DNA of 46,417 bases from a virus: IMG/VR virus record IMGVR_UViG_3300032278_000019, positions 1-46,417 of that record. One strand, 5' to 3'. A model generated the notes under the pieces. That model made no database searches. It was not told where the DNA came from and saw only the letters and a list, made by a program, of their open reading frames with translations. The translations under genes were made by a program, and so were the position numbers. Below are positions 6,266 to 45,388 of this stretch, piece by piece. Position 1 is the stretch's first letter; every line of letters starts with the position of its first letter.

Positions 6266-6272
6266 GACCAAG

Positions 6273-6301: not shown

Positions 6302-6313
6302 GGGTAATTACCC
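6302..6313. promoter_or_regulatory. Repressor operator 2
   Basis: GGGTAATTACCC is a perfect 12-base palindrome, 24-25 bases from operator 1 and thus about two helical turns away on the same face. A GGGT half-site (6295-6298) lies between them. This spacing favours cooperative binding of two dimers. Confidence 0.75.
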
Positions 6314-6350
6314 ATTAGGCCGAACATTACCGATGTGGGATGAACCCTCC

Positions 6351-6962
6351 ATGGAAACGTTCGCTGATCGATTGAGGCGGCGGCTCCGAGAGGTCGACAT
6401 AAGCATGCGCAAAGCCTCGCTTGATGCTGGGCGCAATGAGACGTGGGTGCGCGATCTGCTCCATGGCAGGACGCAGATGCCTTCCGCCGAACATCTCGAG
6501 AAGCTCGCCGAGGTACTAGACTCTTCCCCGCAGTGGCTCTTACATGGAGGGGAACACAGCGGGAACGTCGGTGGCAGGACCGTCCCGCTCGTCGGCCACG
6601 TTGGGGCGGGGGCAGAGATTCTCATCATTGACGATCACGCCAAGGGCGCTGGGCTTGAAGAAGTCGCTGCGCCGCCGGGAGCGCCACGCTCGACCATCGC
6701 CGTGCGCGTGCGCGGCGAAAGCCAGCTCGGCCGGTTTGATGATGGCGACATCATCTTCTACAGCGAGCACTTGCCGCCGGACGACCTGGTCAACCGGCGC
6801 GAGTGTGTCGTGAAGCTGGCGGACGGGCGGCTGTTCGTGAAGCGGCTCGTGCGCGGGAGCGGGCAGGGGCTTTATACGCTGCTCAGTTCGAATGCGGCGC
6901 CGATCGACGATGTCGCGGTCGAGTGGGCAGCCAAAATAGACGCCGTCTCTCTCGCTTACTGA
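6351..6962 (+). CDS. LexA-like (S24) phage repressor, CI type
   Basis: 203 residues: an N-terminal XRE helix-turn-helix (about 3-55) and a C-terminal S24 peptidase domain. The LexA-type cleavage site is in VGHVGAGAE (Ala86-Gly87); the catalytic dyad is Ser124 in RGESQLG and Lys164 in FVKRL. This repressor should cut itself when RecA is activated, giving SOS induction. Start taken at 6351 (GGGATG upstream); 6334 is an alternative. It faces the Cro-like gene across two operators. It maintains lysogeny by blocking both early promoters. Confidence 0.9.
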   Translation: METFADRLRRRLREVDISMRKASLDAGRNETWVRDLLHGRTQMPSAEHLEKLAEVLDSSPQWLLHGGEHSGNVGGRTVPLVGHVGAGAEILIIDDHAKGAGLEEVAAPPGAPRSTIAVRVRGESQLGRFDDGDIIFYSEHLPPDDLVNRRECVVKLADGRLFVKRLVRGSGQGLYTLLSSNAAPIDDVAVEWAAKIDAVSLAY

Positions 6963-10105: not shown

Positions 10106-10144
10106 TCGTTGACCGCTCCGAAATCATCGCGCCACGCTGCGGAG

Positions 10145-11185
10145 ATGAAGAAATATCCGCATGTGCAGCCGGTCAGGGCGGGCGGGCGCACCTATCACTA
10201 TTTCCGTCGCGCCGGAGCGCAGCGGCAGCGCTTGCCGGGCGAGCCGGGCAGCCCGGAGTTCGACCGGGCCTATTCCCGCGCGCTGGCGAAGAGCGTGAAG
10301 CCGGAGAACCGGCCCCCGACGCGCGCCAAGCGCGGCACGGTGGCATGGTGGGCCGAAGAGTACCGGAACACGCCGGAATGGGAGCGCCTGTCGGCTCGGA
10401 CGAAGGAGATCTACAACGGGTTTCTGGGCCACCTGATCGCGCTCTATGGCGAGCGGCCGCTCGGCGAGCTGACCGAGGCGCGGGTCTGGCGCGTCCGGGA
10501 CACGGCGCCGGGCCCGGTCAGCCGGGTGAACGGCATGCTGAAGGTGCTGTCGAACATGTGCGCCCTGGCGGTGCGCCGCGGCAAGCTGCCGACCAATCCG
10601 TGCGCCAATGTCTCGCCTCGGCCGACCAGCGGCGAGGGGCATGCGCCGTGGACCGAACTCCTCGTCGATCGCTACCAGGCGCATTGGGCGCGGGGCACGC
10701 TGCAGCGCGCGGCCTTCGATCTCGGGCTCTATACCGCGCAGCGCCGGGGCGATGTCTGCCGGATGCGCTGGGACGCGATCGAGGATGGCGGGGTGAACCT
10801 GACGCAGGGCAAGACGGGCAGGGCGCTTTTCGTGCCGCTGCACGCCGACCTGATCGAGACGCTCGCCGAGACGCCGCGGCTCGGCCCGTTCATCGTCGGG
10901 ACACAGGCCGGAAGCCAGCGCAGCGACAAGGCGTTCGGGAACTGGTTTCGGGAGTCGGCGTCAGCCGCGGGCGTGCCGGCGGGCTATCCGTTTCACGGCC
11001 TGCGCAAGACGGCGGCGGTCCGGCTGGTCGAGGCGGGCGTCTCTGTGGACGATGCCTGCGCCATCACCGGCCATTCGGACCCGAAGATGCTGCGGCACTA
11101 CGCGGCGACGGCGGACCAGCGGGTCCGCGCGAAACGCGCTATGGAGCGGCTGCAATCGCAGCTGGAACAGAGCGCGAAACTGTAA
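10145..11185 (+). CDS. int: Tyrosine recombinase, phage integrase
   Basis: 346 residues from ATG 10145 (TTG at 10109 would add 12). An N-terminal arm-binding/SAM-like half is followed by the catalytic domain: Arg in TAQRRGDVCRMRW, Lys in QGKTGRALFVPL, HGLRKTAA box with His and Arg, TGHSDPKMLRHYAA with His and the nucleophile Tyr. All catalytic residues are present. It integrates the phage into the host chromosome. Several TGTAAAA motifs near its 3' end may be arm-type sites. Confidence 0.92.
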   Translation: MKKYPHVQPVRAGGRTYHYFRRAGAQRQRLPGEPGSPEFDRAYSRALAKSVKPENRPPTRAKRGTVAWWAEEYRNTPEWERLSARTKEIYNGFLGHLIALYGERPLGELTEARVWRVRDTAPGPVSRVNGMLKVLSNMCALAVRRGKLPTNPCANVSPRPTSGEGHAPWTELLVDRYQAHWARGTLQRAAFDLGLYTAQRRGDVCRMRWDAIEDGGVNLTQGKTGRALFVPLHADLIETLAETPRLGPFIVGTQAGSQRSDKAFGNWFRESASAAGVPAGYPFHGLRKTAAVRLVEAGVSVDDACAITGHSDPKMLRHYAATADQRVRAKRAMERLQSQLEQSAKL

Positions 11186-26239: not shown

Positions 26240-26991
26240 GCTGCCTCCTCAAGCGTCTTGCCGAGCCGCTTGGCGAGCCAGCGCAGCCCCTTCGGCGTGC
26301 AATAGGCCTGATACCGGGCCTTGTCGTCCACCACCGTCATGCGGACCGTGAAATAGCCCTTCTCGCGGTAATAGACCTTCGGCACGAGCGTCTTGCCCTC
26401 GTAGAAGAAGATGCCCGCCTTGAGGAAGGCGAAGAACTTGCCGTCCGGCTCGTTCAGGGCGCGCGCGGCGCCTCGAAGGTTGATCAGCCCGTCCGCGTTC
26501 ATGAACCGGTCGTAGAAGTCGGTCTTCGGCTTGGCCGCCTCGATCTGCTTCTCGGCCTGTTCGATCTTCTCCGTCAGCTCGCGGTTCACCTCGAAGAGCT
26601 GGATCGCGACCTTGTTCATCTGGAGCGGGTCGCGGAGGTCGATCTCCACCGGGGCTTTCCGCAGCTCCTCCTCCATGGCGTTGAAGGCGGCGATGTATTG
26701 CCGCTTCCACTTCAGCGCCTTCGCGCCGGTGAATCCCATGGCGAGCAGGGTGAAGCCGTCACGGTCCATGCTGTAGGCCCGGGTCTGGCGGGTGCCGCCA
26801 TTGCCGGTCGGCACCTCGACGGACACAAGCTCAAAATTGAGCCCGAGTAGATCTGGCTCCTCGTCGATCAGCCGGTCGATGTCGCGAAGGACGTTCTTAT
26901 GCTCCTTGCCGAACGCTTCGGCGATGTCGCGGCTGTCGGCGCGGACCGAGTCGTCCTTCACGAACAGGGTGGTCTTGATCAGATCGCTCAT
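26236..26991 (-). CDS. Antirepressor, Rha plus KilAC domains
   Basis: 251 residues. Residues 1-115 match the Rha regulatory domain (SRDIAEAFGKEHKNVLRDID, TGAKALKWKRQYIAAFNAM). A coiled-coil linker (about 135-150) precedes a KilAC domain (PKTDFYDRFMNADGLINLRG through KGLRWLAKRL). Such Ant proteins bind and disable phage repressors. It is the fourth gene of a five-gene minus-strand operon that faces a ribbon-helix-helix gene, as in P22 immI. Confidence 0.9.
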   Translation of the reverse strand: MSDLIKTTLFVKDDSVRADSRDIAEAFGKEHKNVLRDIDRLIDEEPDLLGLNFELVSVEVPTGNGGTRQTRAYSMDRDGFTLLAMGFTGAKALKWKRQYIAAFNAMEEELRKAPVEIDLRDPLQMNKVAIQLFEVNRELTEKIEQAEKQIEAAKPKTDFYDRFMNADGLINLRGAARALNEPDGKFFAFLKAGIFFYEGKTLVPKVYYREKGYFTVRMTVVDDKARYQAYCTPKGLRWLAKRLGKTLEEAA

Positions 26992-27311
26992 GCGGCTTCT
27001 CCCGTCAGTGCGCGCGCTTCTCTCCAGATCGCGCCGTGGTCCCAGTCGAGCATCTCGTGACCGCCCACGGCGGCGACGATGAGCTTGGCGGCGAAGTCGG
27101 CCGCGCAGGTGGAGGGCATGTCCTTGAGGCGGTCGCGGATCGCATCGGCCTCGTGGTAATAGAGCCGGTCCAGCGTCTCGGCGCTCATGCGGACTCGGCC
27201 CTCGGCGGCCGCCGCCGCGAACAGGTCGCGGTGACGCCGGTAGAGCCGCAGGATCTCCGTGTCTTCGGTTTCGGGCGGGGCGGGCAGGGCGGAAACGTTG
27301 CTCTCGCTCAT
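26988..27311 (-). CDS. Paralogue A, antirepressor operon
   Basis: 107 residues, clearly related to the next upstream gene product: both have TEILRLYRRHRDL/TEILRLFRKYREL, EADAIRDRL/EAAEVRDRI, a CAADFAAKLIVAAV/CATDLAAKLLVATL helix and end in EARALTGEAA/EARSLMGEAA. A tandem duplication. ATGA overlaps on both sides. Function unknown. Confidence 0.8.
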   Translation of the reverse strand: MSESNVSALPAPPETEDTEILRLYRRHRDLFAAAAAEGRVRMSAETLDRLYYHEADAIRDRLKDMPSTCAADFAAKLIVAAVGGHEMLDWDHGAIWREARALTGEAA

Positions 27312-27640
27312 GCCGCTTCTCCCATCAGGCTGCGCGCTTCCTTCAGGAGAGCGTCCGCGTATTGGTCCGCCACCAGGTCAAACCCGTGGAGCGTCGCCAC
27401 GAGCAGCTTCGCGGCGAGGTCCGTTGCGCAGGCGGACGGCAGCGCCATGATCCGGTCCCGGACCTCAGCCGCCTCGCGGTAGAACAGGCGCTCGAGAACC
27501 TCGTCGGTGTCGTCGGGATAGACCGCGCCCCCCACGAGGAGTTCGCGGTACTTGCGGAACAGGCGAAGGATTTCTGTTTCGCCCCGCTCGGGCGTCTCAG
27601 CCGGGGCGGGCAAGATGTGGATAACGCTGTTCGGGTTCAT
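27308..27640 (-). CDS. Paralogue B, antirepressor operon
   Basis: 110 residues, about half identical by eye with the downstream paralogue (shared segments listed there), which makes the pair a tandem duplication kept in one operon. The shared CxxDxAAKL helix and the carboxy end are the best-conserved parts. No known domain; may be a small regulatory or sensing partner of the antirepressor. Confidence 0.8.
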   Translation of the reverse strand: MNPNSVIHILPAPAETPERGETEILRLFRKYRELLVGGAVYPDDTDEVLERLFYREAAEVRDRIMALPSACATDLAAKLLVATLHGFDLVADQYADALLKEARSLMGEAA

Positions 27641-27931: not shown

Positions 27932-27991
27932 ACATAACTTATATGCCTTATGCGCGTTGTCAATATAACCGTGCTGGGTTATATGCGTTTT
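27932..27991. promoter_or_regulatory. Overlapping divergent promoters with inverted-repeat operator
   Basis: Plus strand: TTGTCA (27957-27962), 16 bases, TTATAT (27979-27984), then ATG at 27992. Minus strand: TTGACA at 27963-27958 with an AT-rich -10 near 27941-27935 (TAAGTT). The plus-strand spacer and -10 carry ATATAACC (27963-27970) and GGTTATAT (27977-27984), a perfect inverted repeat. A further ATAACTTATAT lies at 27934-27944. Both promoters therefore share an operator that the ribbon-helix-helix protein can use. Confidence 0.72.
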
Positions 27992-28159
27992 ATGGCCCGT
28001 CCTCCGAAGCTCACCGAGAAGAAGCTGCTCACGCTCACGCCTGAGCTGGCACAGCGTATTTCCGATTTCCGGTTCGCCAGGCGCATTCCGTCCGAGACAG
28101 AAGCCATTCGGCAGCTGATCGAGGCGGGCTTGCGAGCCGAAGAGAGCCGCTCGCAGTGA
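27992..28159 (+). CDS. Ribbon-helix-helix repressor (Arc/CopG type)
   Basis: 55 residues: a short beta strand (KKLLTLTPELAQRI) and two helices (SETEAIRQLIEAGLRAE) in the Arc/MetJ arrangement. The ATG lies about 7 bases after the -10 element, so the mRNA is likely leaderless. The inverted repeat over its own promoter suggests autoregulation and control of the divergent antirepressor operon, like Arc or Mnt in P22. Confidence 0.8.
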   Translation: MARPPKLTEKKLLTLTPELAQRISDFRFARRIPSETEAIRQLIEAGLRAEESRSQ

Positions 28160-28667: not shown

Positions 28668-28811
28668 TTAGTCCTCCGCGTCGCCGCTCATCAGCGACGC
28701 GGGCACGAACAGCTCGGGACCGAAATCCCCGACTCTATAGAGGTGCTGCCGCTTGCCGCGGGCGGAGCGGCGCGCCTTCCGGATTACGGCCTTAGCGAGT
28801 GTGCGGATCAT
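28668..28811 (-). CDS. 47-aa protein carrying the tape-measure FGPELF motif
   Basis: Basic helix (TLAKAVIRKARRSARGKR) followed by RVGDFGPELFVPASL, nearly the same as VGEFGPELFMPSTAG in this phage's own tape-measure protein (about residue 583). Strong GAAGGAGAGCCCC ribosome site. The leader is almost identical to that of the lipoprotein gene at 38297. It may bind the partner of the tape-measure C-terminus, as an assembly factor or a decoy; this is inference. Confidence 0.7.
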   Translation of the reverse strand: MIRTLAKAVIRKARRSARGKRQHLYRVGDFGPELFVPASLMSGDAED

Positions 28812-28846
28812 GGGGCTCTCCTTCTGCGCGCCTAACGTGGTGGTAA
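28806..28846 (-). promoter_or_regulatory. Moron leader element, copy 1
   Basis: GATCATGGGGCTCTCCTTC (28806-28824) and CCTAACGTGGTGGTAA (28831-28846), separated by 6 bases (plus-strand reading). The same two blocks, 4 bases apart, occur at 38292-38330. On the minus strand the outer block reads TTACCACCACGTTAGG and the inner one holds the ribosome site and start codon. Probably a promoter/leader cassette shared by two moron genes. Confidence 0.75.
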
Positions 28847-28925
28847 TCGGCGGCGCGGTCCAGAGGCCGGGCTCAGCTGGCGGCGTGCTGGACTCTCGCA
28901 GCGAGCGCATCCTACGAAGTGAAGC

Positions 28926-28949
28926 GGCGGCCCGTTGGAGGGGCCGCCG
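28926..28949. other. GC-rich hairpin upstream of zinc-ribbon gene
   Basis: GGCGGCCC and GGGCCGCC flank a short GTTGGAG-type loop near 28926-28948, forming an 8-bp stem. No U-run on either strand. It lies between two divergent genes and may insulate them. Confidence 0.5.
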
Positions 28950-28958
28950 TCACCTGAA

Positions 28959-29029
28959 CCAGCCATAGGGGGCTGGATATCGCGCGATGGTCGCAGCCTA
29001 TGGCCGTGCCCTGCGTGCGTCCAGCCCCC
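28959..29029 (+). ncRNA. Candidate structured RNA/leader before zinc-ribbon gene
   Basis: Three competing pairings: CCAGCC (28959-28964) with GGCTGG (28971-28976); GCCATAGG (28962-28969) with CCTATGGC (28997-29004); GGGGGCTGGA (28968-28977) with TCCAGCCCCC (29020-29029). The last two cross and could form a pseudoknot. ATCGCGCGAT (28978-28987) is a palindrome in the loop. The element ends 21 bases before ATG 29051 and next to its GGAGGGG site, so a leader switch is possible. On the opposite strand it could act as a decoy site. Confidence 0.45.
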
Positions 29030-29050
29030 GCCGATCCGGAGGGGCCTTCA

Positions 29051-29353
29051 ATGGCGAAAGATTCGATCGAAATCATCTGCCGCGCGTGCGACTGCGCCGT
29101 CGAAGCTGTCGAGGATCCGGAGGGCGACGACATTGTGACCTGTCCGTCCTGCGGGGCGAGTGACCCATTCGCAGTGGTGATGGAGAAGGTCTCGGACGAG
29201 CTGTCGGAGGTGGTCGGCGACAGCCTCATCGGAGAACTGGCGGACGGCCTCGGCAATTCGTCCTCGGTCAAGGTGACGCCGAAGCCGGACCGACAGAGCG
29301 GGTACAAGTTCACCTTCCGGCGCGATCCCAGTCATTCGAAATACCTCCGTTGA
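29051..29353 (+). CDS. Zinc-ribbon protein
   Basis: 100 residues. Two Cys pairs (CRACDC and CPSC) separated by 16-18 residues form a zinc ribbon; the C-terminal half is acidic then basic, ending FTFRRDPSHSKYLR. GGAGGGG ribosome site. Ends 6 bases before the end of the DUF1833 gene on the other strand. May bind nucleic acid or a host factor; not recognised. Confidence 0.75.
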   Translation: MAKDSIEIICRACDCAVEAVEDPEGDDIVTCPSCGASDPFAVVMEKVSDELSEVVGDSLIGELADGLGNSSSVKVTPKPDRQSGYKFTFRRDPSHSKYLR

Positions 29354-29359
29354 GCGGCG

Positions 29360-29908
29360 TCACCTGACCAGGCCCGGGAAATCCGTCGCCCGATACACCA
29401 TCCGCGGGAAGGCGCGGTTCACGATGTCGGCCCGGTTCGCCACGCCGGACAGCGTGTCGCCCTTCAGCTCGACCGCACCGAGGGACAGCGTGATCGGATC
29501 GCTCGCGGCGACGAAGGCGCCGCCCCAGCCGGTCGGTGCGCCGGGATGCACGAGATAGGTGCAGAGCTGAGCCCGGATCGGAACCGGCGCCTCGTCCCAC
29601 CGCCATTCCAGCGCGCGGCGCAGCTCCTTGCGCATCTCGCCGGTGTCGATCGCCAGATTGATCGACATGTCCTGCCGCCCGCTGCCGTCCTTCGAGGGTA
29701 GGGAGCATTTGAACGGGTAGGGCTGGAACAGGAGCTTGTAGCCCGCACCTGCTACGGTCCCCTCGAACGCCTCGGAGTGGTTCGTGAAGCCGTAGCGGCC
29801 GCTCGCGCCATTGGTGAAGGCGGGGTGATAGAGCTCCAGCCCCTCCGCCTCGATGAGGTCGGACGGCGCATGCGTCCAGCTGCGCTTGAGGTCGTCGGCC
29901 GTGGGCAT
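29360..29908 (-). CDS. DUF1833-like minor tail protein
   Basis: 182 residues with the family pattern: YPFKCSLPSKDGSGRQDMSI, INLAIDTGE and a PVPIRAQLCTYLVHP strand. Such proteins take the place of lambda L/GTA gp12 at the tail tip, between the tape measure and the NlpC protein. Gap of 3 bases to the tape-measure gene. The accessory island follows its 3' end. Confidence 0.8.
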   Translation of the reverse strand: MPTADDLKRSWTHAPSDLIEAEGLELYHPAFTNGASGRYGFTNHSEAFEGTVAGAGYKLLFQPYPFKCSLPSKDGSGRQDMSINLAIDTGEMRKELRRALEWRWDEAPVPIRAQLCTYLVHPGAPTGWGGAFVAASDPITLSLGAVELKGDTLSGVANRADIVNRAFPRMVYRATDFPGLVR

Positions 29909-29911
29909 GGA

Positions 29912-31918
29912 TCAGAACCCCTGCCTGGTCAGGCCGTAACTGTCTTCGAGCATACGGGACACCGGGCCGCGGCTGGCGAAGTCGGCCTGCATCGTCTCGA
30001 CGGTGATCTCGACGTTTCCGCGCCCGTCATCCGTCGCGCGGGCATGGGTGCCGGGCGCGAGGTTGTTGACCGTGACGTTGGCGCCGCCGCCCGCGCGCTG
30101 CGTCGCGGCGTTGCTGGCGATCGTCCCTGCCGTCGACGGCATGAAGAGCTCCGGCCCGAACTCGCCGACGAGGTAAGGCTTCCTCGACATGACCGGCCCG
30201 CCGGTGGCGCGGCCGAACAGCGAAGAGACGAAGCCGCCAATGCCGCCGCTTCCACCGCTCCCGCCGAAGAGGCTGCTGGCGATCCCGTCCATCAGGCCGT
30301 TCAGGGCGCTGTTGAAGACGCTATCGAGCACCCCTGCGAGCGCACCCTTGAAGTCGCCTTGCAGGGCTGCGCGGGTGCCGCGGGAGAAGGCGGAGCGGAA
30401 CAGATATTCCATGTCCCGCTGAAGCTCTTCGTTCTTTCTACCGTCCTCCCCTTCCCCCCCTTGCTCGCTCGCGAACCCGCCATATTGCGCCATGGCGACA
30501 CCGACCGCCGTTCCGCCGGTCCGCTTCAGCCGGTCGGCCTTGGCCTGCTCCACGGCGGCGATCTGCCGCTCGGCGGCGAGCCTTGCATCGGCGCCCTCGA
30601 CGCCGGCCGCATCGAACTCCGCGATCAGGCGGCGCAGTTCGAGCCGTTTCTCGAGGTTCGCGATCTTCTCCCTATCGCCTTCGGCCTCTGCGACCAGGAG
30701 AGCGTTCCGCAGTTCCAGATCTTCGCGCATCTGGCGTTCGAGGGCAGCCTGTTGCGCCTTGGCTTCGGCAGTCTCTCGCGCCGCCACGCTCGGCTTGCCG
30801 GATCCTCCGCCATCGCCCTGCGCCTGAGCCGTGCGCTCGACCGCCTCGGCTTCCCGTTCGGCGGCCTCGGCAGAGACACGGTTCTGCTCGGCGATTAGCG
30901 CGCCGAGGTTCGCACGGCGCTCCTGCAGCTCGGCCAGGCGCTGCTCGACCTCGTCCTGATCCCGCTTGGCCAGCGGGACGAAACCCAAATTCGCGTCGAA
31001 CAGTCCCCCGTCCTTCATCCGCTGGAGCTTGTCCTCCATGAAGGCGATCTCGCGGTTCGTCTTCTGGTACTGCGCCGTCAGGTCTCCTGCCTCGGCCCGG
31101 CGGTCGACCTGTGCCCGCGCGTTCCTGAGCTCGAGGAAGTCGCGGAGTTTGCCCGCCGCGAAGTCGATCTCGTCGGCGAATCGGTTGAGTTCAGCTGTGC
31201 CTGTGTCGCGGAGCAGGCCGAACAGCCCGTCGAGCTCGCGTTTCGCGTCCGCCGCTGCGGCCACGGTGTCGTCCGCCATGATGCGGCCGACCCGCTCCCA
31301 TTCGTCACCGGTTCGGCGGATGTAGCCTTCGCCTTTGACGAGGATGGCGTTGATCTGGTTGCCTTGTTCACCAACCAACTGAGCGCCCAAGGCCGCCGCT
31401 CGCGACGCATCATCAAGCCGGGCGAGGGCATCAGCAATCTTCACGAATTGCTCGTCCGACCTCAGACCTTCGAGGTCTTTGAGCGGAATGTTGAGTTCCT
31501 GAAGCGCTTCCGCCGCCTCGCCTGTGCCGTAGATCAGCGCTTCGCCGATCCGCTCGTTCATGTCGGTCAGGACGTCGACGGCGGCTTGCCCGTCCTTGCC
31601 GACCGAGCGGAAGGCGGCCTGAATACGCTGAAGTCCGCTCGCCGAAGTGTTCGTCTGCTGACTGAGCTCTTCGAGCTGCCGGGCCGTGGCGAGAGCCTCC
31701 CCAGTGAACTTGCCCAGCGCCGCCCCGCCCGCCGCCGCGCCGGCGGCGAGCGCCGTCGCGCTCGTGGCCGCGAAGCTCTTCAGTTTGCCTTCCGCGAGGG
31801 CGAACCGGCGCTCCATGTCGCCCGCGCTCTCCTTCGTCTTGTTCCGGAGCCGGTCGATCTTGTTGAGCGCCTCGTCGACCTTGGCTTCGAACTCGATCTT
31901 GATCGCGCGCAGCTTCAT
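29912..31918 (-). CDS. Tape-measure protein
   Basis: 668 residues. The N-terminal coiled coil (IEFEAKVDEALNKIDRLRNK), a hydrophobic Ala/Gly stretch (about 50-75), long Ala/Glu/Arg helices, a glycine-rich hinge (GGSGGSGGIGG) and the C-terminal VGEFGPELFMPSTAG signature (about 583). Sets tail length and enters the host membrane during DNA ejection. It is short for the class, which predicts a tail near 100 nm by the usual 0.15 nm per residue rule (estimate). Confidence 0.92.
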   Translation of the reverse strand: MKLRAIKIEFEAKVDEALNKIDRLRNKTKESAGDMERRFALAEGKLKSFAATSATALAAGAAAGGAALGKFTGEALATARQLEELSQQTNTSASGLQRIQAAFRSVGKDGQAAVDVLTDMNERIGEALIYGTGEAAEALQELNIPLKDLEGLRSDEQFVKIADALARLDDASRAAALGAQLVGEQGNQINAILVKGEGYIRRTGDEWERVGRIMADDTVAAAADAKRELDGLFGLLRDTGTAELNRFADEIDFAAGKLRDFLELRNARAQVDRRAEAGDLTAQYQKTNREIAFMEDKLQRMKDGGLFDANLGFVPLAKRDQDEVEQRLAELQERRANLGALIAEQNRVSAEAAEREAEAVERTAQAQGDGGGSGKPSVAARETAEAKAQQAALERQMREDLELRNALLVAEAEGDREKIANLEKRLELRRLIAEFDAAGVEGADARLAAERQIAAVEQAKADRLKRTGGTAVGVAMAQYGGFASEQGGEGEDGRKNEELQRDMEYLFRSAFSRGTRAALQGDFKGALAGVLDSVFNSALNGLMDGIASSLFGGSGGSGGIGGFVSSLFGRATGGPVMSRKPYLVGEFGPELFMPSTAGTIASNAATQRAGGGANVTVNNLAPGTHARATDDGRGNVEITVETMQADFASRGPVSRMLEDSYGLTRQGF

Positions 31919-31931
31919 GCCTGTTCTCCGG

Positions 31932-32542
31932 TCATCGCATCAACTCCTCGTCGAACCCGTCCCAAGCCTCGGCCCATCCGGCCGCCAGCTCGTCGTCGGT
32001 CAGGTGGTCAGGCGGGGCCATCTCGCCGGAGGCGCGCGAATGGATCTCGCGCATGAGCCGGGCGTATCGGACGGCGGTGCCGGTGTGCTGATACCAGGTC
32101 AGTTCATCGACCAGGTGCGGGGGCGTGCCGCCTATGTGCGCATGGAGCGCGTAAGCGTCTGCCAGATCGAAGCGGCGCGACGCAGCGCGCCCCGAAGCTT
32201 TCCCGGCGCCTCCTCGTCGGGAGAGACGCCTTCGAGTGCGGCAGCTAGGATGACCGTCGCGCAGGCGCGGATCTGCGCGAACGGCATCTCCTCGACCATG
32301 CGCTCCGCGAGCGGCTCGGCCGAGGAGCGGTGCATTCCGCCGCCGATCAGCCCGAGGCGGAACAAGTGCGGCGCGACCTTGGCGAGGTGCTTCGGATTGG
32401 TGTTCCGCACCATCTCGGGAATGTCGAACAAGTCGGCGCCACTGTCCTCCTGGAGCCGATCCAGCTCGACGAGCCGCAGCCTGAAGGTGCGAGGCTCGCC
32501 CAGCACCTTCAGCTCGACCGCGTTCCGGGTATAGGCGCTCAT
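31932..32542 (-). CDS. Tail assembly chaperone fusion GT, made by -1 frameshift
   Basis: Reading starts at 32542 in the G frame, shifts at GGGAAAG (minus strand, 32204-32198) and continues in the -1 frame from 32198 to the TGA at 31934-31932. The joined product is 203 residues; its T part contains TWYQHTGTAVRYARLMREIH and ends WDGFDEELMR. The heptamer reads G GGA AAG in the G frame, the same slip site as lambda G-GT. No stop codon interrupts the -1 frame. The GT protein would load the tape measure onto tail-tube subunits. Confidence 0.85.
32132..32542 (-). CDS. Tail assembly chaperone G
   Basis: 136 residues; unshifted product of the G/GT gene. Sequence resembles GTA gp10/TAC proteins: a beta-strand start (LKVLGEPRTFRLRLVELDRL) and helical body with PHLFRLGLIGGGM. 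The slip site is at codons 114-115. Overlaps the tube gene by ATGA. Confidence 0.8.
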   Translation of the reverse strand: MSAYTRNAVELKVLGEPRTFRLRLVELDRLQEDSGADLFDIPEMVRNTNPKHLAKVAPHLFRLGLIGGGMHRSSAEPLAERMVEEMPFAQIRACATVILAAALEGVSPDEEAPGKLRGALRRAASIWQTLTRSMRT

Positions 32543-33045
32543 GCGGTCAGGGCTTGGAAGATCGCGCTGGCGCCGATCGGCGCATCGTCGTGCCAGTAAT
32601 CGACCTTCCCGTCGCTTTCGAAGTTCGCCGAAAAGGTCTGGAGACCGCCGCTACGCGAAGCTCCCCAGGTCAGGGAGGTCAGGACAAAGCGTCCGGCGAG
32701 ATACCAGTTCATGATGCCGGTCGGGTTGTTGTCAGGGGCCTGCATCGAGAACAGGCCGATCTTCTCGCTCGCTGTCGAGTCTAGCCAGGCCGAGAACAGC
32801 TCGCGATCATTGAGCGCGAAAGTGCCCTGTGCAGAGAACGTCGCGCCTTGGCTGAGGACGCTGGTCGCCATCCAGGCCGGTGCCATGAAATTGGCCGCAT
32901 CGGGCACCGCATCGCGCTGGGTGCTTCGCGTGATCTCGCCCGTGACCTCCTCGAAGGTCGCGAGCATAGTGATCTTCGGCGTCGCCGCGCCGTCGCTGTG
33001 GATCATGCGGGCCTTGCCGCCCGGAAGGGTGTTCTTCGTCGCCAT
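32539..33045 (-). CDS. Major tail tube protein
   Basis: 168 residues, beta-rich, with ATKNTLPGGKARMIHSDG at the N-terminus and FSANFESDGKVDYWHDD at the end, as in phage tube proteins. Position between the chaperones and the tail terminator. Forms hexameric rings of the non-contractile tail. Confidence 0.8.
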   Translation of the reverse strand: MATKNTLPGGKARMIHSDGAATPKITMLATFEEVTGEITRSTQRDAVPDAANFMAPAWMATSVLSQGATFSAQGTFALNDRELFSAWLDSTASEKIGLFSMQAPDNNPTGIMNWYLAGRFVLTSLTWGASRSGGLQTFSANFESDGKVDYWHDDAPIGASAIFQALTA

Positions 33046-33059
33046 GGTCGGGCTCCTGT

Positions 33060-33488
33060 TCAGGCGGTTTGGGTGAGGCGGGCGCGGTATTCGAGCGCGG
33101 TCGTCCAGAGCTTGGGCGAGCCGGTCTCGGGGGAGAGCGGCGCGCCGATCCGCTCCCAGAGCTCAAGGGATGCCCCCTTGGGGAAAATGCCGTCGCGGTC
33201 GGACAGCGCCGTCATCACGGCGGAGACGATCTCGGTCATCCGGTCGTCATCGGGTGCCTCGTCGTGCACCGTGACGGCGATCTCGATCTCGGAGCCCGGG
33301 TGCCCCGCTAGGGTGTCCTCGAACTCCGCCGTGACGCCGACCGTGATGTAGGGGTGCGCCGTCGATCCGATCTTGAAGGTGCCGGGCGCGTAGATCCGCT
33401 CGCCGACGAGGGCGGCCAGATCAGGCGTCTGGTTCAGGGTCCTGATCACTGCTCCACGCATCGGGCTGCGGAGATCCAGTCTCTTCAT
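33060..33488 (-). CDS. Tail terminator/completion protein (DUF3168-like)
   Basis: 142 residues. PDLAALVGERIYAP followed by PYITVGVTAEFED and a C-terminal ALEYRARLTQ follow the DUF3168 pattern. Caps the tail. Start at 33488 preferred (GAGGG upstream); it overlaps the preceding small gene by 68 bases in another frame. Confidence 0.75.
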   Translation of the reverse strand: MKRLDLRSPMRGAVIRTLNQTPDLAALVGERIYAPGTFKIGSTAHPYITVGVTAEFEDTLAGHPGSEIEIAVTVHDEAPDDDRMTEIVSAVMTALSDRDGIFPKGASLELWERIGAPLSPETGSPKLWTTALEYRARLTQTA

Positions 33489-33630
33489 AGGCGTAGCCCT
33501 CACTGATCAGGAAATCGGCCATGTCCTGCGGCAGGTGATCGGGCACGAGCAGGGTGCGGCCGTTGATGTAGAACCGGGCCGAAGTCTCGGTCAGTTCTTC
33601 GCGGTACGTCTTGGTGATGGTGATCTTCAT
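33421..33630 (-). CDS. Small head-tail region protein
   Basis: 69 residues, ATGA overlap with the HK97 gp10-like gene. Begins MKITITKTYREELTETSARF and ends with an acidic, Asp/Pro tail that overlaps the terminator gene. Not recognised; perhaps an auxiliary head-completion protein. Confidence 0.6.
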   Translation of the reverse strand: MKITITKTYREELTETSARFYINGRTLLVPDHLPQDMADFLISEGYAYEETGSPQPDAWSSDQDPEPDA

Positions 33631-34028
33631 CGCAGGACCTTCTCTTTGACCTTGTCGAACAGGCGGATGATCTTGCGCCGGCTCTTGTTGAGGGCGGGGC
33701 GCATGAAGGGGCGTTCGGCCATGCGGGAGGTCCCGTATTCGAGCGCGGCGCTGTAGGGCGCGCTGCTCATGACCTCGGCGCTCAGCTCGCCGGTGCGGCG
33801 GGAGAGGATGCCGCGCTGAAGCTGGCCCGTGTCGGTGTTGGGCGGCTCGCCCGGGCGCGAGGGAACGTGGTTCTGGCCGCTGGTCGAGCCTTGCGAGACG
33901 AGGTGCTGCGCCTCCGCCTTGACGATGTCCGCCGCGACGAAGACCGCGCGCCCCGCCTCCTTGCGCGTCTCGCGGGAGAGCCCGGAGAGCGCCTTGTCGA
34001 GCTCCCGCACGCCTTCGACCTTAACCAC
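33627..34028 (-). CDS. HK97 gp10-like tail completion protein
   Basis: 133 residues with the family pattern: GVRELDKALSGLSRETRKEA, VPSRPGEPPNTDTGQLQRGI, YSAALEYGTSRMAERPFMRP. Acts at the head-tail joint. It overlaps the next upstream gene by 8 bases. Confidence 0.85.
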   Translation of the reverse strand: MVKVEGVRELDKALSGLSRETRKEAGRAVFVAADIVKAEAQHLVSQGSTSGQNHVPSRPGEPPNTDTGQLQRGILSRRTGELSAEVMSSAPYSAALEYGTSRMAERPFMRPALNKSRRKIIRLFDKVKEKVLR

Positions 34029-34497
34029 GGACGATGCGTGCGCCGTTGGCCTTCACGATATAGGCCCCGTTCGCCTTGACGAGCGGGATGGAGGGCGGGC
34101 GGATCGGTGCCGGGGTCGCGGCCTGGCTCATGGTGACGTCGATAACCCAGAGCACGCCGCCGCTGTCCTGCGAGGCGGATCCGGCCTCGTAGCGGTTGCC
34201 GTCCTGATCGATCAGCTGCGCGTCGAGGTCGTCGCTCGGCGAGATGATGCCGGTCAGGCCCCGCGCCTCGATCTGCGCGCGCAGGGGCGCCTGGAGGACG
34301 CGCATCACGGCCTGTTTGCGGGTGACGCCGTCCTCGGTGACGGTCCGGGTGCCGAGCTGGTATTTGATCGGGACGGTATAGGTGTCGAGCACGACGACCT
34401 TGCCCTCGTCGGTGATCGCGGTGCGCGTCGTGACGATCGAGCCGTCCCGGTAGAACGTGCCGAGCCCGGCCGCGAACATGCTGCTCAGGTCAACCAT
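34021..34497 (-). CDS. Head-tail joining protein, hypothetical
   Basis: 158 residues from ATG 34497 (GGGAGGGTTCT upstream). Beta-rich; the C-terminus contains a repeated VKANGAYIVKANGARIV segment. Position between the DUF4054 connector and gp10-like genes matches a stopper or neck protein. A longer frame to 34563 would overlap the connector gene more and lacks a ribosome site. Confidence 0.72.
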   Translation of the reverse strand: MVDLSSMFAAGLGTFYRDGSIVTTRTAITDEGKVVVLDTYTVPIKYQLGTRTVTEDGVTRKQAVMRVLQAPLRAQIEARGLTGIISPSDDLDAQLIDQDGNRYEAGSASQDSGGVLWVIDVTMSQAATPAPIRPPSIPLVKANGAYIVKANGARIVRG

Positions 34498-34858
34498 AGA
34501 ACCCTCCCACAGCGCGCGGACCGCCGCCCAGAGACGTCGCAAGAGCGAGAAGGCGCTGGCCATAGGACGTCCTCTCGTAGAGCGAGGCGCTGGCCTCGGT
34601 CGGAGCGAAGTTCAGCGAGGCGTCGCCGCTCCTGGCGCTGGTCACGCCGGCGCTGCGTTGCGCGACGAGCTTCCCCTCTTCGCCGTGCCCGTTCAGCGTC
34701 AGCTCATGCGCCGCCGCGAGAAGCGTGGCGCGGTCGATCTGATCGCCGAACAGGTCCGCCGACAGCGACGGGACCGCCAGCGCGTCGAGCACCGCCCCAT
34801 CGGGCGCCTCCGCGAGCAGCGGGAACCGCTCGCGGAAGGTCTGGAGGTCCGCCGCCAT
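34490..34858 (-). CDS. Head-tail connector, DUF4054-like
   Basis: 122 residues: FRERFPLLAEAPDGAVLDAL, then ATLLAAAHELTLNG and YGQRLLALA, as in gp6-like connectors that bind under the portal. Three bases separate it from the capsid gene. Confidence 0.8.
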   Translation of the reverse strand: MAADLQTFRERFPLLAEAPDGAVLDALAVPSLSADLFGDQIDRATLLAAAHELTLNGHGEEGKLVAQRSAGVTSARSGDASLNFAPTEASASLYERTSYGQRLLALATSLGGGPRAVGGFYG

Positions 34859-34861
34859 GGC

Positions 34862-35836
34862 TTAGGCGCCGTCGCGGTAGACGATTGCCTTCGGCTTGTG
34901 GACGTGCGGGGCGCCGACACGCAGCGCGCCGGGGACCATGAAGCCGAACGCGCCGTATTCGCGCGGGTCGAAGAAGGTGAAGCGCTGCGCCATCGGCAGC
35001 GTCACGACGTCTTCCTCGTTGCGGTAACCGACCATGCGGGTCTTGCCGCTCGCGCCAGCCGTCTCCGCCTCGATCGGGGTCCGCACCATCGGCGCCTGGC
35101 CCGTATCGTCGGTGTAGGGGTTGTTGGCCATGAAGAAGGCCCAGATCGTCGTATCCGAGGCGTCGGACAGGCGGGTCTGCGCGAGCAGGCGCTTGATCGA
35201 CGGCGGGAGCAGGACCGTGTCCGGGCGCTCGACCTCGTTCGTCTCCGCGAGCGGGATCGAGAGGAGGTCGAACAGGTCGGCGAGGATGGCATCCCGACCG
35301 GCCTGCGTCTTGATCTTCTCCGCGAAGGTGCGCTCGGTCGCCGTGGAGCCGGAGACGTTGGCCGCAGCGACGGAGGGATGGTTCAGCAGGCCGGAGACGC
35401 CCTTCTCCCCGGAACCATTGATGACGAGGCGCTGCACGAAGCGCTCCGCGACGAGGCGCGCCGCGTTCGCCTTGCGGGTCTGCAGGGCGGGCTGGCCCGG
35501 ACGGGAGGGCAGGGCCGCAGCCTTGTCGATCTCCCACTGCGTGTAGTCGTAGCCCACGCCAGCGGTGAAGATCGGGCCGGTGGCGCTGTCCTGCGACACG
35601 GTCACGAGCGGGACGCTGTTCGTGTTGTTGGACAGGAACTCGGCTTTGCCCGCGATGTCGAACTCGTCGTAGCGGACCGAGTCGGCGAAGGCGGCGATGC
35701 TCTCGTCGACCGTGATCAGCTCGGGATAGGTGATCTGACCGTAGGTCTTGGAGAGGACGATGTTCGAGACCGCTTCGGCCTCGCGTGTGACGAAGGCGAG
35801 GGCCGCCGCCGCGTCTCGGAAGTTCTGGTAAGTCAT
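34862..35836 (-). CDS. Major capsid protein (DUF2184-like)
   Basis: 324 residues. The N-terminal arm is followed by a HK97-fold-like body; IAGKAEFLSN, YDYTQWEIDKA, RLVAERFVQRLVINGSG and VLLPPSIKRLLAQTR fit DUF2184 major capsid proteins. C-terminus HVHKPKAIVYRDG. Main head shell protein. GAAGGAGG ribosome site, expected high expression. Confidence 0.85.
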   Translation of the reverse strand: MTYQNFRDAAAALAFVTREAEAVSNIVLSKTYGQITYPELITVDESIAAFADSVRYDEFDIAGKAEFLSNNTNSVPLVTVSQDSATGPIFTAGVGYDYTQWEIDKAAALPSRPGQPALQTRKANAARLVAERFVQRLVINGSGEKGVSGLLNHPSVAAANVSGSTATERTFAEKIKTQAGRDAILADLFDLLSIPLAETNEVERPDTVLLPPSIKRLLAQTRLSDASDTTIWAFFMANNPYTDDTGQAPMVRTPIEAETAGASGKTRMVGYRNEEDVVTLPMAQRFTFFDPREYGAFGFMVPGALRVGAPHVHKPKAIVYRDGA

Positions 35837-35906
35837 GAAGGAGGTTCCTTGAAGAGGGGCGGCCGCCCTTCTCGGGCAGGCCGGAGGCTCGGCTCAGACG
35901 GCCGCG
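35837..35906. other. Spacer with palindrome between cement and capsid genes
   Basis: GGGCGGCCGCCC (35857-35868) is a perfect palindrome that extends imperfectly to about 20 bases. On the minus transcript it forms a stem just before the capsid ribosome site. It may stop RNA decay or adjust the ratio of the two structural proteins. Confidence 0.5.
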
Positions 35907-36335
35907 TTACTTGAGGTTGATGCGGACCAGGTCGCCGGCGGAGCCGCTGTCGACGTAGGTTGCGCCGCCGGGGAACTCGTTGAGCCCGGTCGGGCCGAAC
36001 GTGCCGTCATCGGCGAAGGTCACGCCGTCACCGGCAGAGACGGCTTCGCCTGCGGTGATCCAGAAGGTGCCGCGCGTGCAGATCGTGGCGGTGTCGCCGG
36101 CCTTGTACTGCTCGCCATTGCCCGCCGGGACGAGCGGGTCGCGGTAGACGATGCCGAGCGGCGAGGCGCCGGCGCTCATCACGTCCGCCTCGCGGTCGGT
36201 CGTGCCCTGCACCGCGACTGCGCCGAAGGGCAGGTCAGCCTCTGCGGTCAGGCTGCGGGCGTCGTAGTTTTCCATCGTCGCGCGCGCGCCAGGGGCGCCC
36301 ACGGCGGGGTCGAGGTCGTAATTGTCGATAGCCAT
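35907..36335 (-). CDS. Head decoration/cement protein (Gp24-like)
   Basis: 142 residues, beta-rich, rich in Gly and Asp, with FGAVAVQGTTDREADVMSAG and DTATICTRGTFWITAGEAVS, the pattern of structural cement proteins. It would stabilise the capsid. It sits between the scaffold/protease and the capsid gene, the usual place. Confidence 0.78.
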   Translation of the reverse strand: MAIDNYDLDPAVGAPGARATMENYDARSLTAEADLPFGAVAVQGTTDREADVMSAGASPLGIVYRDPLVPAGNGEQYKAGDTATICTRGTFWITAGEAVSAGDGVTFADDGTFGPTGLNEFPGGATYVDSGSAGDLVRINLK

Positions 36336-36446
36336 GATCGAGCTCCTGTCGTGGCCGATAAGGGGGAGGGTGCTGCGGGTGAGGGAGAGCGCGCCCGGCG
36401 CAGCGACCGGGCGCGTCAGAAGGCAGGCGCGGGGCCTAGAGGGGGA
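36336..36446. other. Spacer with hairpin between protease-scaffold and cement genes
   Basis: GCGCCCGG (36391-36398) and CCGGGCGC (36407-36414) form a strong 8-9 bp stem with an 8-base loop. No U-run. Possibly an RNA-processing or partial termination site inside the head operon. Confidence 0.5.
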
Positions 36447-37055
36447 TTAGGCCGCGCGGTTGCGCTTCGGGTGCAGGAAGGCGTCCTGAGCCGCGAGGGC
36501 CTTGGCGCGGTCTGCATCGGCGTCGCCGGTCATACGGTCCTCGTCAGCGCGAGGGGCGGGGGAATGGCTGCCGTAGCCTTCCGAACCGGAGACTGAGGCC
36601 ATCTCGTCGAGGCGCGCCGTGATGGCCGTGTCGACGTTGTCGCCGAAGCGCTCTTTCAGGCTGTCATAGGTCGCCGTGCCGCGCTTCTCCTTGAAGAGCG
36701 CGGCCCGGTCCGCCGCGGCGTCGCCGGTCGGCTTGAAGTTCGAGACGCCGAGCTTCTTCGCCATGTCCTCGAGGCCCTGCCGGTCCTTCGCCATCTTCTC
36801 GGCGGCAGCGGCGACGGCTTCGGGGCTGGACTTCGCTTCGAGATCGGAGACCTGCGCGCGCAGCTCCTCGATCGTGCCGTCGCGGGCGGCGAGGTCGGTC
36901 TGTGCGGTGTCGCGGGCCTGCACGGCTGCGTCGCGTTCGGCCTGCACCGTTTCGAGCGCACGGTTCGCGTCGCGCATGATGCGCTCCACAAGCTCGGCGT
37001 CGGCGAGAGCGAGAGTGACGGCCGAGCCGTCGAGGGTGATCGTGCGCGTCGTCAT
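36447..37055 (-). CDS. Nested scaffold protein (internal start)
   Basis: In-frame ATG at 37055 is preceded by AGGAGACAGCGCC, a good ribosome site inside the fusion gene. It would make a separate 202-residue scaffold lacking the protease domain, as in lambda C/Nu3. Evidence is the site and the domain boundary; expression is not shown. Confidence 0.6.
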   Translation of the reverse strand: MTTRTITLDGSAVTLALADAELVERIMRDANRALETVQAERDAAVQARDTAQTDLAARDGTIEELRAQVSDLEAKSSPEAVAAAAEKMAKDRQGLEDMAKKLGVSNFKPTGDAAADRAALFKEKRGTATYDSLKERFGDNVDTAITARLDEMASVSGSEGYGSHSPAPRADEDRMTGDADADRAKALAAQDAFLHPKRNRAA

Positions 37056-37712
37056 GGCGCTGTCTCCTGTGCTGCTGGGGGTGCCGGTCGGCTGGGAGCC
37101 TTCCCCCGCCAAACCGGCGGCGCGGGGGTCGGAAGTCGAGACGCCGAAGGCGTAGCGCTTGTCGTCGCCGATCCGGGCGTCAGGGCCGGCGCGACCGCGC
37201 GGCACGATTGCCACATGATCTGCAACGATCGAGCGCATCACGCCGTCATAGGGGCCGTGCTTCGGGTCGGTGCCGGGCGTCATGTCGAGGCGGCTCATGT
37301 AGCCCGCGGAGAGCTCGCGCTCGCCGCCCTCGATCGTTTCGATGGCCTCGGCCGCGTCGATGACGAGGTTCGCGGTGAAGTGGTCGCCGGAGGCCAGCGT
37401 CTCGCGCCCCATGTCGACCGGGTCGACGTTGCCCACGGTGTATTTGCGGAGCGCCGCGCCGTCGCCGCGGACCGGCTCATTCGGGTGGCCGATCGTGACC
37501 GGCGCGCGGGCGAAGCTTTCGAGGCTGGCCCGGTCGAACACCTCGTCGGACGGGCGGAGGATGCGGTAGATGCGGTCCTCGCCGCCGATCTCGCTCCCGT
37601 GGTACTCGTAGATCCCGTCGCGCGCGATCCGCGCCTTGGCGACGAGCCTGCCCCACTGGTCCCGCTTCGTGCCGGAGATCGTCACCTTATCGGCGACAAG
37701 GATATCGGGCAT
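36447..37712 (-). CDS. Prohead protease-scaffold fusion (DUF2213)
   Basis: 421 residues. The protease half (about 1-200) has His76 in TIGHPNEP, Ser135 in RELSAGY and His166 in DHVAIVPRGRAG, the catalytic set of herpesvirus-like prohead proteases. The second half is a Glu/Ala/Arg coiled coil typical of scaffold. Cleaves scaffold and capsid during maturation. Confidence 0.87.
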   Translation of the reverse strand: MPDILVADKVTISGTKRDQWGRLVAKARIARDGIYEYHGSEIGGEDRIYRILRPSDEVFDRASLESFARAPVTIGHPNEPVRGDGAALRKYTVGNVDPVDMGRETLASGDHFTANLVIDAAEAIETIEGGERELSAGYMSRLDMTPGTDPKHGPYDGVMRSIVADHVAIVPRGRAGPDARIGDDKRYAFGVSTSDPRAAGLAGEGSQPTGTPSSTGDSAMTTRTITLDGSAVTLALADAELVERIMRDANRALETVQAERDAAVQARDTAQTDLAARDGTIEELRAQVSDLEAKSSPEAVAAAAEKMAKDRQGLEDMAKKLGVSNFKPTGDAAADRAALFKEKRGTATYDSLKERFGDNVDTAITARLDEMASVSGSEGYGSHSPAPRADEDRMTGDADADRAKALAAQDAFLHPKRNRAA

Positions 37713-37735
37713 CGGGCCCCTCCTTTCAGGCAGAG

Positions 37736-37760
37736 AAAAGCCCCGCTCGGTGGCGGGGCT
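37736..37760 (-). terminator. Intrinsic terminator of the lipoprotein moron
   Basis: On the minus strand AGCCCCGC-CACCGA-GCGGGGCT (37760-37739) is followed by TTTTCTC. It lies 37 bases after the lipoprotein gene and before the protease-scaffold gene. With the leader element at 38292-38330 it makes the gene a self-contained moron. Confidence 0.8.
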
Positions 37761-37796
37761 GGTGTCGGTGCTGGTCTGCCGGAGGAGGGCGGGCGC

Positions 37797-38297
37797 TTAC
37801 TGCGGCGCGGCCTCAATGGCAGTGAGCATTTCCGCGAACCGTTCGGGCGGGACCTGCAGGGTGACGGCGCCGCGGCTGCCGGACAGCTTCACGTCGAGCC
37901 CTTCGGCGGCGTAGCGCTGCAGCTGGTCTGCGCTGAGCGGGATGCCGCCCTTCTCCTGGATGCGGCTGCCAGAGAGCACCTGCCGGTCGCGAACCCTGTA
38001 ATCGAGCGAGTCGCCCCCGGCATATGCGTTCTCGAGGAACAGCCAGTCGCTGTGTTCGACCCGCGTGTAGAGCATGACGTACCAGGGCGAGCCCGCTTCC
38101 GGCTGCGTCGCGCCGACATTGGCATAGACGCTAGGCCCCAGCCCTATCGCCGTCATCTTCATGATGTTCCGGCCGTCCAGCGTCGCCTGCCCGGTGTATT
38201 CGTCCGCTTTGAAGACGACGTCTTCCGTCACCATCGTGCCGCCGGTGGCGCACGCGGCGAGGCTGACAAGGGCAAGGGCGGCTAGGGCTCTGATCAT
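37797..38297 (-). CDS. Lipoprotein (moron)
   Basis: 166 residues. A short signal peptide ends in the lipobox SLAAC (Cys about 16), so the mature protein is lipid-anchored. The body is beta-rich with VKLSGSRGAVTLQVPP. Starts MIR, as does the 47-aa protein, and shares its leader element. Phage lipoproteins often block superinfection; that is an inference here. Confidence 0.82.
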   Translation of the reverse strand: MIRALAALALVSLAACATGGTMVTEDVVFKADEYTGQATLDGRNIMKMTAIGLGPSVYANVGATQPEAGSPWYVMLYTRVEHSDWLFLENAYAGGDSLDYRVRDRQVLSGSRIQEKGGIPLSADQLQRYAAEGLDVKLSGSRGAVTLQVPPERFAEMLTAIEAAPQ

Positions 38298-38330
38298 GGG
38301 GCTCTCCTTCGGCCCCTAACGTGGTGGTAA
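38292..38330 (-). promoter_or_regulatory. Moron leader element, copy 2
   Basis: GATCATGGGGCTCTCCTTC (38292-38310) and CCTAACGTGGTGGTAA (38315-38330), plus-strand reading. All 35 bases of the two blocks are identical to copy 1 at 28806-28846; only the spacer length differs (4 versus 6). Holds the ribosome site and start of the lipoprotein gene. Confidence 0.75.
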
Positions 38331-38356
38331 ACGTCTGGCGGGTCTAGGGGCGGGTG

Positions 38357-39163
38357 TCAGGTGCAGTTAGTTCGCTTCTTCGGATCCGGCGGCGTTTCTA
38401 CCGCTCGCTCGACTGACCAACCTTTGTTGAGGCGCTTCTGAATCGCAGACCGACTGAGACCGCTAAGTTTGGAAAGCTGGTGCAGCGATAACTCCTGCCC
38501 TCGATAAGCATATCGCTTCGACCCGCGCCTCGCGCCGGATGCCTGCGGAGTGGACAGGAGCTCTTCTGCCCCCCATCCGCGGGCAATTCGATGATGAATT
38601 GTCGCGATCGACAAGCCCGACTCTTCAGAGAATTCGCGAACTGTCTTCGTTTGCCCACCTATCGTCACCGTCGGCGTTTCAGTCGGAAGGGCCACTCCCT
38701 CCGCCAGAGAAAGCCCTCGCCGCCGCCGCCCGCTCAGCGTTGCCTTGTTCACCCCGTAGCGGCTCGCCGCTTCTGTGAGTGTCAGCGCTTCGCCCGAAAC
38801 ATTCTCTCGCATAGTGGAGCGCTTGTTCCGGTTTTGCTCTTCAATGGTCGCCCAACGGACGTTACCCGGCTCGTAATGACCGTCGACGTCGATCCGATCT
38901 AATGAGTGGCGCGCCGAGGGCCGGGGGCCGACACACTCAAAGAAGGCTTCAAAACTCCGGCGCCACTCCTCGCATAAACGAATGCCACGGCCTCCATAGT
39001 GCTCGTAGCTGGTGGCGTTCGGGTTCTCGCAACGCTGCCTCATGCCATGCCAAGCGCTATACTCAGGCGCCGTGTCATCCGCTCGCCGCATGCCGTGGCG
39101 AACCGCATCAGGGCGGTTGGTAGTGAATTCGGCGCCGTTCAGCGCTATAACGCGCGTAGCCAT
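38357..39163 (-). CDS. Homing-endonuclease-like protein with helix-turn-helix repeats
   Basis: 268 residues. The N-terminal half has the phage AP2/HNH-like pattern: EYSAWHGMRQRCENPN, YEHYGGRGIRLCEEW, SLDRIDVDGHYEPGNVRWAT and EQNRNKR. The C-terminal half has three helix-turn-helix units (LTEAASRYGVNKATLSGRRR; VREFSEESGLSIATIHHRIA; LHQLSKLSGLSRSAIQKRLN) for site recognition. Base composition is less GC-rich than neighbours. It stands alone between head genes, typical for a mobile homing gene. GAGGTCCAA before ATG. Confidence 0.75.
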   Translation of the reverse strand: MATRVIALNGAEFTTNRPDAVRHGMRRADDTAPEYSAWHGMRQRCENPNATSYEHYGGRGIRLCEEWRRSFEAFFECVGPRPSARHSLDRIDVDGHYEPGNVRWATIEEQNRNKRSTMRENVSGEALTLTEAASRYGVNKATLSGRRRRGLSLAEGVALPTETPTVTIGGQTKTVREFSEESGLSIATIHHRIARGWGAEELLSTPQASGARRGSKRYAYRGQELSLHQLSKLSGLSRSAIQKRLNKGWSVERAVETPPDPKKRTNCT

Positions 39164-44551: not shown

Positions 44552-45334
44552 TCAGTCCGAAGCCGCCCGCAGATCCCCGAGGGGCAGGGTGATCGCCTTG
44601 GCCGCGGCGAGGAAGCCCCGCGCCATGTCGCCCGCCGCTTCTAACTGCACCTCTCCCGTCTCGGGCAGGACAGAGGTGACGGTGAAGCGCACCCCGGCGA
44701 GCAGGTGCCGCGCATCCTCGACCTCGACCGCATCGCCGGTGGAAAACTCGGGCTCCGCGGCGTAGCGCCGGTCGGCTTCGGGCGGCGGCGCCATGCGGTC
44801 CAAGTGCTCCTTGCGCAGACGCTCCATGTCCCGCCCGGCGATGGCCCGGGGGCGCCCTGCGATCCCGTCGACCACGACCCGGCTGCGCGTCTTCGCCATG
44901 GCCTGAGCTGCGGCCTGGAAGGCGCCGGCCGGATCGGCGTCATGCGCACCGAGGAACATCACGCCGGGAATGAGCTGCCGGAACACGGGCTCGCGGCTGG
45001 CGAGCGGACGGCCGGGCGGCTTGGCCCAGCCCAGCGAGCCAGGCACGAAGGTGCGGACGCCGGGCGAGGCGACGCCGATCTCGTGCTTGACCTTGAACAC
45101 GCGCTGCGACGGCACGCGGAACGCGAACCAGAGCCCGAGCGACCAGATCGCGTCGGGCACGGCATCTTCGGCCGTGACCATCTCGCGCAGTTCGGCGGCC
45201 CGACGCGCATCGATTCCACGATAGCGCTCGCCGTCCCGCTGCGCCGCCTCGATCAGGTCCAGCTTGTCCTGAACCGCCGCCGCGATGACCTGCCGCCGCT
45301 TACGCTTCCGCCTTGCCTTCGATGCCCTGCCCAT
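44552..45334 (-). CDS. NusG-like transcription factor
   Basis: 260 residues. A basic N-terminus (KARRKRKRRQ), then an NGN-like region with WFAFRVPSQRVFKVKHEIG, TFVPGSLGWAK and LIPGVMFLG, and a KOW-like end: FSTGDAVEVEDARHLLAGVR followed by GEVQLEA. NusG homologues bind RNA polymerase at its clamp and regulate pausing. A phage-borne copy directly upstream of the late genes is likely a late antiterminator. Start at 45334; an upstream GTG at 45388 is less likely. Confidence 0.8.
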   Translation of the reverse strand: MGRASKARRKRKRRQVIAAAVQDKLDLIEAAQRDGERYRGIDARRAAELREMVTAEDAVPDAIWSLGLWFAFRVPSQRVFKVKHEIGVASPGVRTFVPGSLGWAKPPGRPLASREPVFRQLIPGVMFLGAHDADPAGAFQAAAQAMAKTRSRVVVDGIAGRPRAIAGRDMERLRKEHLDRMAPPPEADRRYAAEPEFSTGDAVEVEDARHLLAGVRFTVTSVLPETGEVQLEAAGDMARGFLAAAKAITLPLGDLRAASD

Positions 45335-45388
45335 GCCGCCCCCGCGCCCTGCCGAGCGGGCAGTATGGAGTGCGCCGGGAGGTAACAC

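Follow-up and report, generated by a model that had tools for sequence, protein, structure and literature searches.

Two accessory genes of a temperate phage have a common start-associated leader

The window analyzed here, i.e., the whole stretch of 46,417 nucleotides, is a viral genome record of 46.4 kb with a GC content of 67%. A direct repeat is found at both ends (beginning at positions 9 and 46292); therefore, the record is probably a complete circular genome. The encoded proteins include a tyrosine integrase, a CI-like repressor, RecT, a Rha/KilAC antirepressor and a tape measure protein (TMP), a gene content indicative of a temperate tailed phage. Identity of the large terminase is 60% with Pseudanabaena phage Pam3 and 58% with Rhizobium phage I65, and reaches at most 69% with IMG/VR contigs. 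Searches for relatives via the lipoprotein described below or the capsid protein yielded no related loci, and the capsid matches in the phage collection were all distant. No close relative was found (best terminase identity ~69%, capsid identity only ~30-36%). A NusG-like assignment of the region 44552-45388 was rejected, as it was a weak hint only and Pfam and PHROGs gave no support.

Two minus-strand genes are the subject of this analysis (Table 1). The gene for a 47-aa protein lies amid the tail genes as part of an accessory block and is antisense to the genes on either side. The tape-measure-like motif YRVGDFGPELFVPAS of this protein resembles YLVGEFGPELFMPST in the TMP of the phage itself; no family match was found for the protein, and tblastn against phages gave no match. 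Near the 3' end of the gene, inspection by eye revealed only a hairpin without a T run. The second gene, encoding a predicted lipoprotein, is flanked by the gene of an HNH endonuclease and that of the head protease/scaffold. In Pam3, I65 and TM26, no gene is annotated between the minor head/head morphogenesis protein and the scaffold, which indicates that the lipoprotein gene is an insertion. No homologue of the lipoprotein was detected in phages, plasmids, PDB or 80 terminase-related loci. The gene is directly followed by a hairpin resembling an intrinsic terminator; four terminator-like sites were found in the scanned region versus 1.5 expected. The adjoining HNH gene (38357-39163) belongs to the head module, and in another locus (L021) an HNH gene fills the slot immediately before the protease gene. 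Both genes are absent from all 80 terminase-related loci and, judging from this absence, are predicted to be accessory (moron) genes. Together with the presence of the integrase and the CI-like repressor, this agrees with the initial annotation, which described two moron genes with a common leader.

Table 1. Positions of the leader elements, the two genes and other features in the window
Feature	Position	Strand	Remark
Distal element TTACCACCACGTTAGG, copy 1	28831-28846	-	exact
Distal element TTACCACCACGTTAGG, copy 2	38315-38330	-	exact
Ribosome-site block GAAGGAGAGCCCCATGATC, copy 1	28806-28824	-	exact; holds start codon 28811-28809
Ribosome-site block GAAGGAGAGCCCCATGATC, copy 2	38292-38310	-	exact; holds start codon 38297-38295
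Upstream box CCTCTGGACC, copy 1	28857-28866	-	candidate -35-like element; matches copy 2 at 8/10 positions
Upstream box CCCCTAGACC, copy 2	38341-38350	-	in the gap that begins at the HNH stop
47-aa protein gene	28811-28668	-	basic N-terminus and tape-measure-like motif YRVGDFGPELFVPAS
Predicted lipoprotein gene (166 aa)	38297-37797	-	MIRALAALALVSLAAC, with lipobox; from sequence
Intrinsic-terminator-like hairpin AGCCCCGCCACCGAGCGGGGCT, then TTTCTC	37760-37739	-	directly after the lipoprotein gene
Tyrosine integrase gene	10109-11185		
CI-like repressor gene	6264-6962		

On the minus strand, the order of elements is the same in both copies of the leader, i.e., TTACCACCACGTTAGG, a spacer of 6 or 4 nt, and GAAGGAGAGCCCCATGATC. 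The blocks are identical between the copies at 35/35 positions (16 + 19 nt), exactly as initially described, and the spacer is CGCGCA in copy 1 and GGCC in copy 2. The distal element ends 17-19 nt 5' of the start codon, whereas the ribosome-site blocks enclose the start codon and extend into codon 2. Copy 1 occupies a divergent gap and is not immediately preceded by a co-directional gene, and copy 2 fits in the 59-nt gap between the HNH stop codon and the lipoprotein start codon. The element TTACCACCACGTTAGG has two exact matches in the window, and two matches were observed in none of 100 shuffles. The 19-mer GAAGGAGAGCCCCATGATC is the joint-longest repeat in the genome, with the exception of the terminal repeat, and none of 40 genomes simulated with a third-order Markov model contained two long direct repeats next to each other. 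Leaders were also compared all against all within loci, using the window, terminase relatives and, as a positive control, phage TM4. This set comprised 61 loci with 1,540 putative leaders; the pair described here was the top within-locus pair (score 36), followed by a paralogous pair (28) and the known SAS/ESAS pair of TM4 (27.5). In its length and its placement, the leader common to both accessory genes exceeds what chance would give. It should be noted that AAGGAGAACCCCGATG, a partial ribosome site at 7218 on the plus strand, also precedes the gene at 7231, and the ribosome-site half is partly the general style of this genome. A third full copy of the leader is not present in the window.

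The similarity extends beyond the identical blocks that were originally taken as the leader, upstream into a CCYCTRGACC box and downstream into the coding sequence. The two proteins had been considered non-homologous beyond MIR; the three residues do match, but this is an understatement, because residues 1-6 (MIRTLA and MIRALA) conform to MIRxLA. Codons 3-6 differ between the genes (CGC/AGA, ACA/GCC, CTC/CTA and GCT/GCC), and this is the sole pair among 780 gene pairs matching at three of residues 3-6. The box is located exactly 10 nt upstream of TTACCACCACGTTAGG in both copies and matches at 8/10 positions at shift 0, compared to at most 6/10 at other shifts (P ~0.014 for random pairs); as a third common element it is only moderately significant. 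The common boxes at fixed spacing suggest that the genes may have their own promoter, but the dedicated promoter proposed in the initial annotation is no more than suggested by them: no sigma-70 promoter consensus was recognised at the leaders, and CACGTT, the -10-like part located at 17 nt, is a poor match. The EcfG general-stress promoter has the form GGAAC-N16/17-CGTT. This candidate was rejected: GGAAC-N15-18-CGTT does not occur in the window, and the leaders have a spacing of 19 with the -35-like box GGACC/AGACC.

Searches for the element elsewhere gave little. The exact 16-mer TTACCACCACGTTAGG had five matches in the viral contig collection, none of them in a comparable leader; looser leader patterns had five and three matches in this collection, below or near the chance level and none convincing. 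The element had no matches in the genome contig collection, and no convincing copy was found before a gene in the 80 terminase-related loci. With no third copy in the window and no convincing copy at gene starts in viral or genome contigs, the notion of a mobile leader found no support. The reverse complement GCCTAACGTGGTGGTAA is located in attC-like sites of two viral contigs, L003 and L005, and these sites (L003:75-190 and L005:605-710) fold as long hairpins (z -3.5 and -1.7, respectively). Accordingly, the element could be half of an integron attC recombination site. However, the copies in the window lack the partner half (paired R and L boxes) and fold no better than shuffles (z 0.76 and -0.15), and five exact matches are, by estimate, no more than chance for a collection of this size. 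For the window copies, the attC half-site was rejected as very improbable.

Repeats associated with gene starts have been described in other phages. The Start-Associated and Extended Start-Associated Sequences (SAS/ESAS) of cluster K mycobacteriophages are present in 11-19 copies (PMC3203893); among Microbacterium phages, cluster EF has the SAS GGGAAAGGACCCC with ESAS, and cluster EC has motifs 22-30 bp upstream of starts, with 10-12 copies each (PMC7302621). These systems combine start-adjacent blocks, in which the conserved positions go beyond Shine-Dalgarno pairing, with an upstream element (PMC3203893, PMC7302621). Similarly to cluster K, a conserved Shine-Dalgarno block ending in CCC is found here just before the starts of unrelated genes (GAAGGAGAGCCCC, compared to GGGATAGGAGCCC for the SAS), and a second conserved element lies just upstream of it. 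Unlike in cluster K, there are two full copies and one partial ribosome site, the upstream part is a single non-palindromic 16-mer with a separate box rather than a pair of 17-bp imperfect inverted repeats, the phages and hosts are unrelated, and the genes are insertions in or beside the structural region. A repeated motif that keeps a fixed distance from the starts of different genes downstream of it is also a feature of the Microbacterium repeats (here, the distance from the end of the distal element to the start is 17-19 nt), whose sequences are unrelated and whose 10-12 copies contrast with two here. By analogy, the leader appears to work most like SAS/ESAS, yet we do not count it as a member because of the copy number and the lack of an inverted repeat.

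Comparable repeats are present in relatives by terminase. The motif GAAA(T/A)GGAG(A/C) precedes starts 11 times in I65, 10 times in Rhizobium phage TM26 and 6 times in Pam3, versus 0-0.2 in shuffles, and some of these repeats are preceded by a box of the form GGGGATA(A/G) or (T/C)TATCCCC; in I65, TTWACCAACCTTAGAAATGGAGAA is common to two neighbouring genes. These repeats differ in sequence from the leader, are more numerous, and are mostly outside the structural genes. We found no earlier description of them in a literature search that was not exhaustive. Thus, the habit of start-associated repeats is present in this phage group, though the sequence of the leader is not common to it. Reports of such repeats in phages date from 2011 and 2020 and did not establish what they do; here, comparable repeats occur in a different phage group, and two genes with one leader make a simple case for distinguishing transcription from translation.

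The repeat is probably functional and of a kind described before in other phages. We consider it somewhat more probable than the reverse that it is a constrained two-part 5' leader of a two-gene moron regulon, combining a promoter/operator box with a fixed ribosome site. The upstream part, CCYCTRGACC-N10-TTACCACCACGTTAGG, with its rigid spacing, would be the promoter/operator, which overlaps the transcription start or ends close to it. Downstream, GAAGGAGAGCCCC-ATG-ATC would be the ribosome site, fixed and SAS-like, separated from the upstream part by a variable 4-6 nt of unconstrained 5' UTR. The 47-aa protein and the lipoprotein would then be expressed together, apart from the surrounding late operons; we infer promoter/operator activity, co-expression and expression in the lysogen. 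The rigid upstream spacing, the flexible spacing to the ribosome site, and blocks that stayed identical next to a spacer and synonymous sites that differ fit a selected promoter/operator and ribosome site, whereas the small number of copies, only two compared to 10-19 in described SAS sets, speaks against this interpretation, as do the lack of a recognised sigma-70 consensus, the partly general style of the ribosome site and the moderate significance of the third box. Alternatively, the likeness may be mainly a leftover of common descent without present function, if the 5' end of one gene (leader and first codons) was copied before the other, either as a mobile leader or through recombination making a new gene. 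Such an origin, which we regard as unlikely although deserving serious weight, is consistent with the similarity spanning the upstream box to codon 6, with the chimaeric look of the 47-aa protein, in which a basic N-terminus is joined to a tape-measure-like motif, and with the HNH endonuclease gene adjoining copy 2. A single recent copying event would be expected to transfer the spacer along with the blocks; the different spacers inside perfect blocks therefore argue against such an event and favour a constrained two-part leader, and the duplicated leader initially suggested is disfavoured in this form. Conversely, in an old copy, 35/35 block positions should not have survived alongside changes in the spacer and at synonymous sites, and the lack of a third copy in the window also counts against common descent.

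A purely post-transcriptional role appears quite unlikely. In this scenario, the distal element would not be a promoter but would be transcribed as 5' UTR, and the leader would be an mRNA element, either a translation signal similar to SAS or a target of a small RNA or a regulatory protein. The blocks surround the start and reach codon 2, as would be expected of such an element, and a translational role of SAS was proposed by its authors (PMC3203893). In copy 2, the Shine-Dalgarno sequence can be enclosed in a GGGGC/GCCCC hairpin (-11.8 kcal/mol), but copy 1 does not retain this hairpin (-4.7 kcal/mol), there is no Rfam match, and the fixed spacing to the upstream box combined with the flexible gap to the ribosome site better fits a promoter or DNA binding.

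The constrained two-part leader marks the two accessory genes as likely expressed together. The ltp gene of phage TP-J34 is a moron encoding a superinfection-exclusion lipoprotein (PMC3952083), and the target of Ltp is the tape measure protein, according to a study cited in that article. Similarly to ltp, the gene described here encodes a lipoprotein and is inserted in a temperate phage, and its partner gene carries a tape-measure-like motif, which recalls the Ltp target named by the cited study. In contrast, no sequence similarity to ltp was shown, and Ltp comes from phages of a Gram-positive host. A minimal regulon, in which one leader drives an envelope lipoprotein and a mini-protein mimicking the tape measure motif of the incoming phage, both expressed in the lysogen and together excluding superinfecting phages, is improbable as a whole. 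We treat a joint role of the two proteins in superinfection exclusion as a lead and not a result, because it derives from the exclusion of phages by the TP-J34 lipoprotein and from the target attributed to it in the cited study.

Other observations concern neighbouring sequence. At 26988-27640, two adjoining genes (107 and 110 aa) resemble tandem paralogues and have similar leaders. At 27940-28000, a TATAACC...GGTTATA inverted repeat, perhaps an operator, was seen by eye at the start region of a small plus-strand gene.
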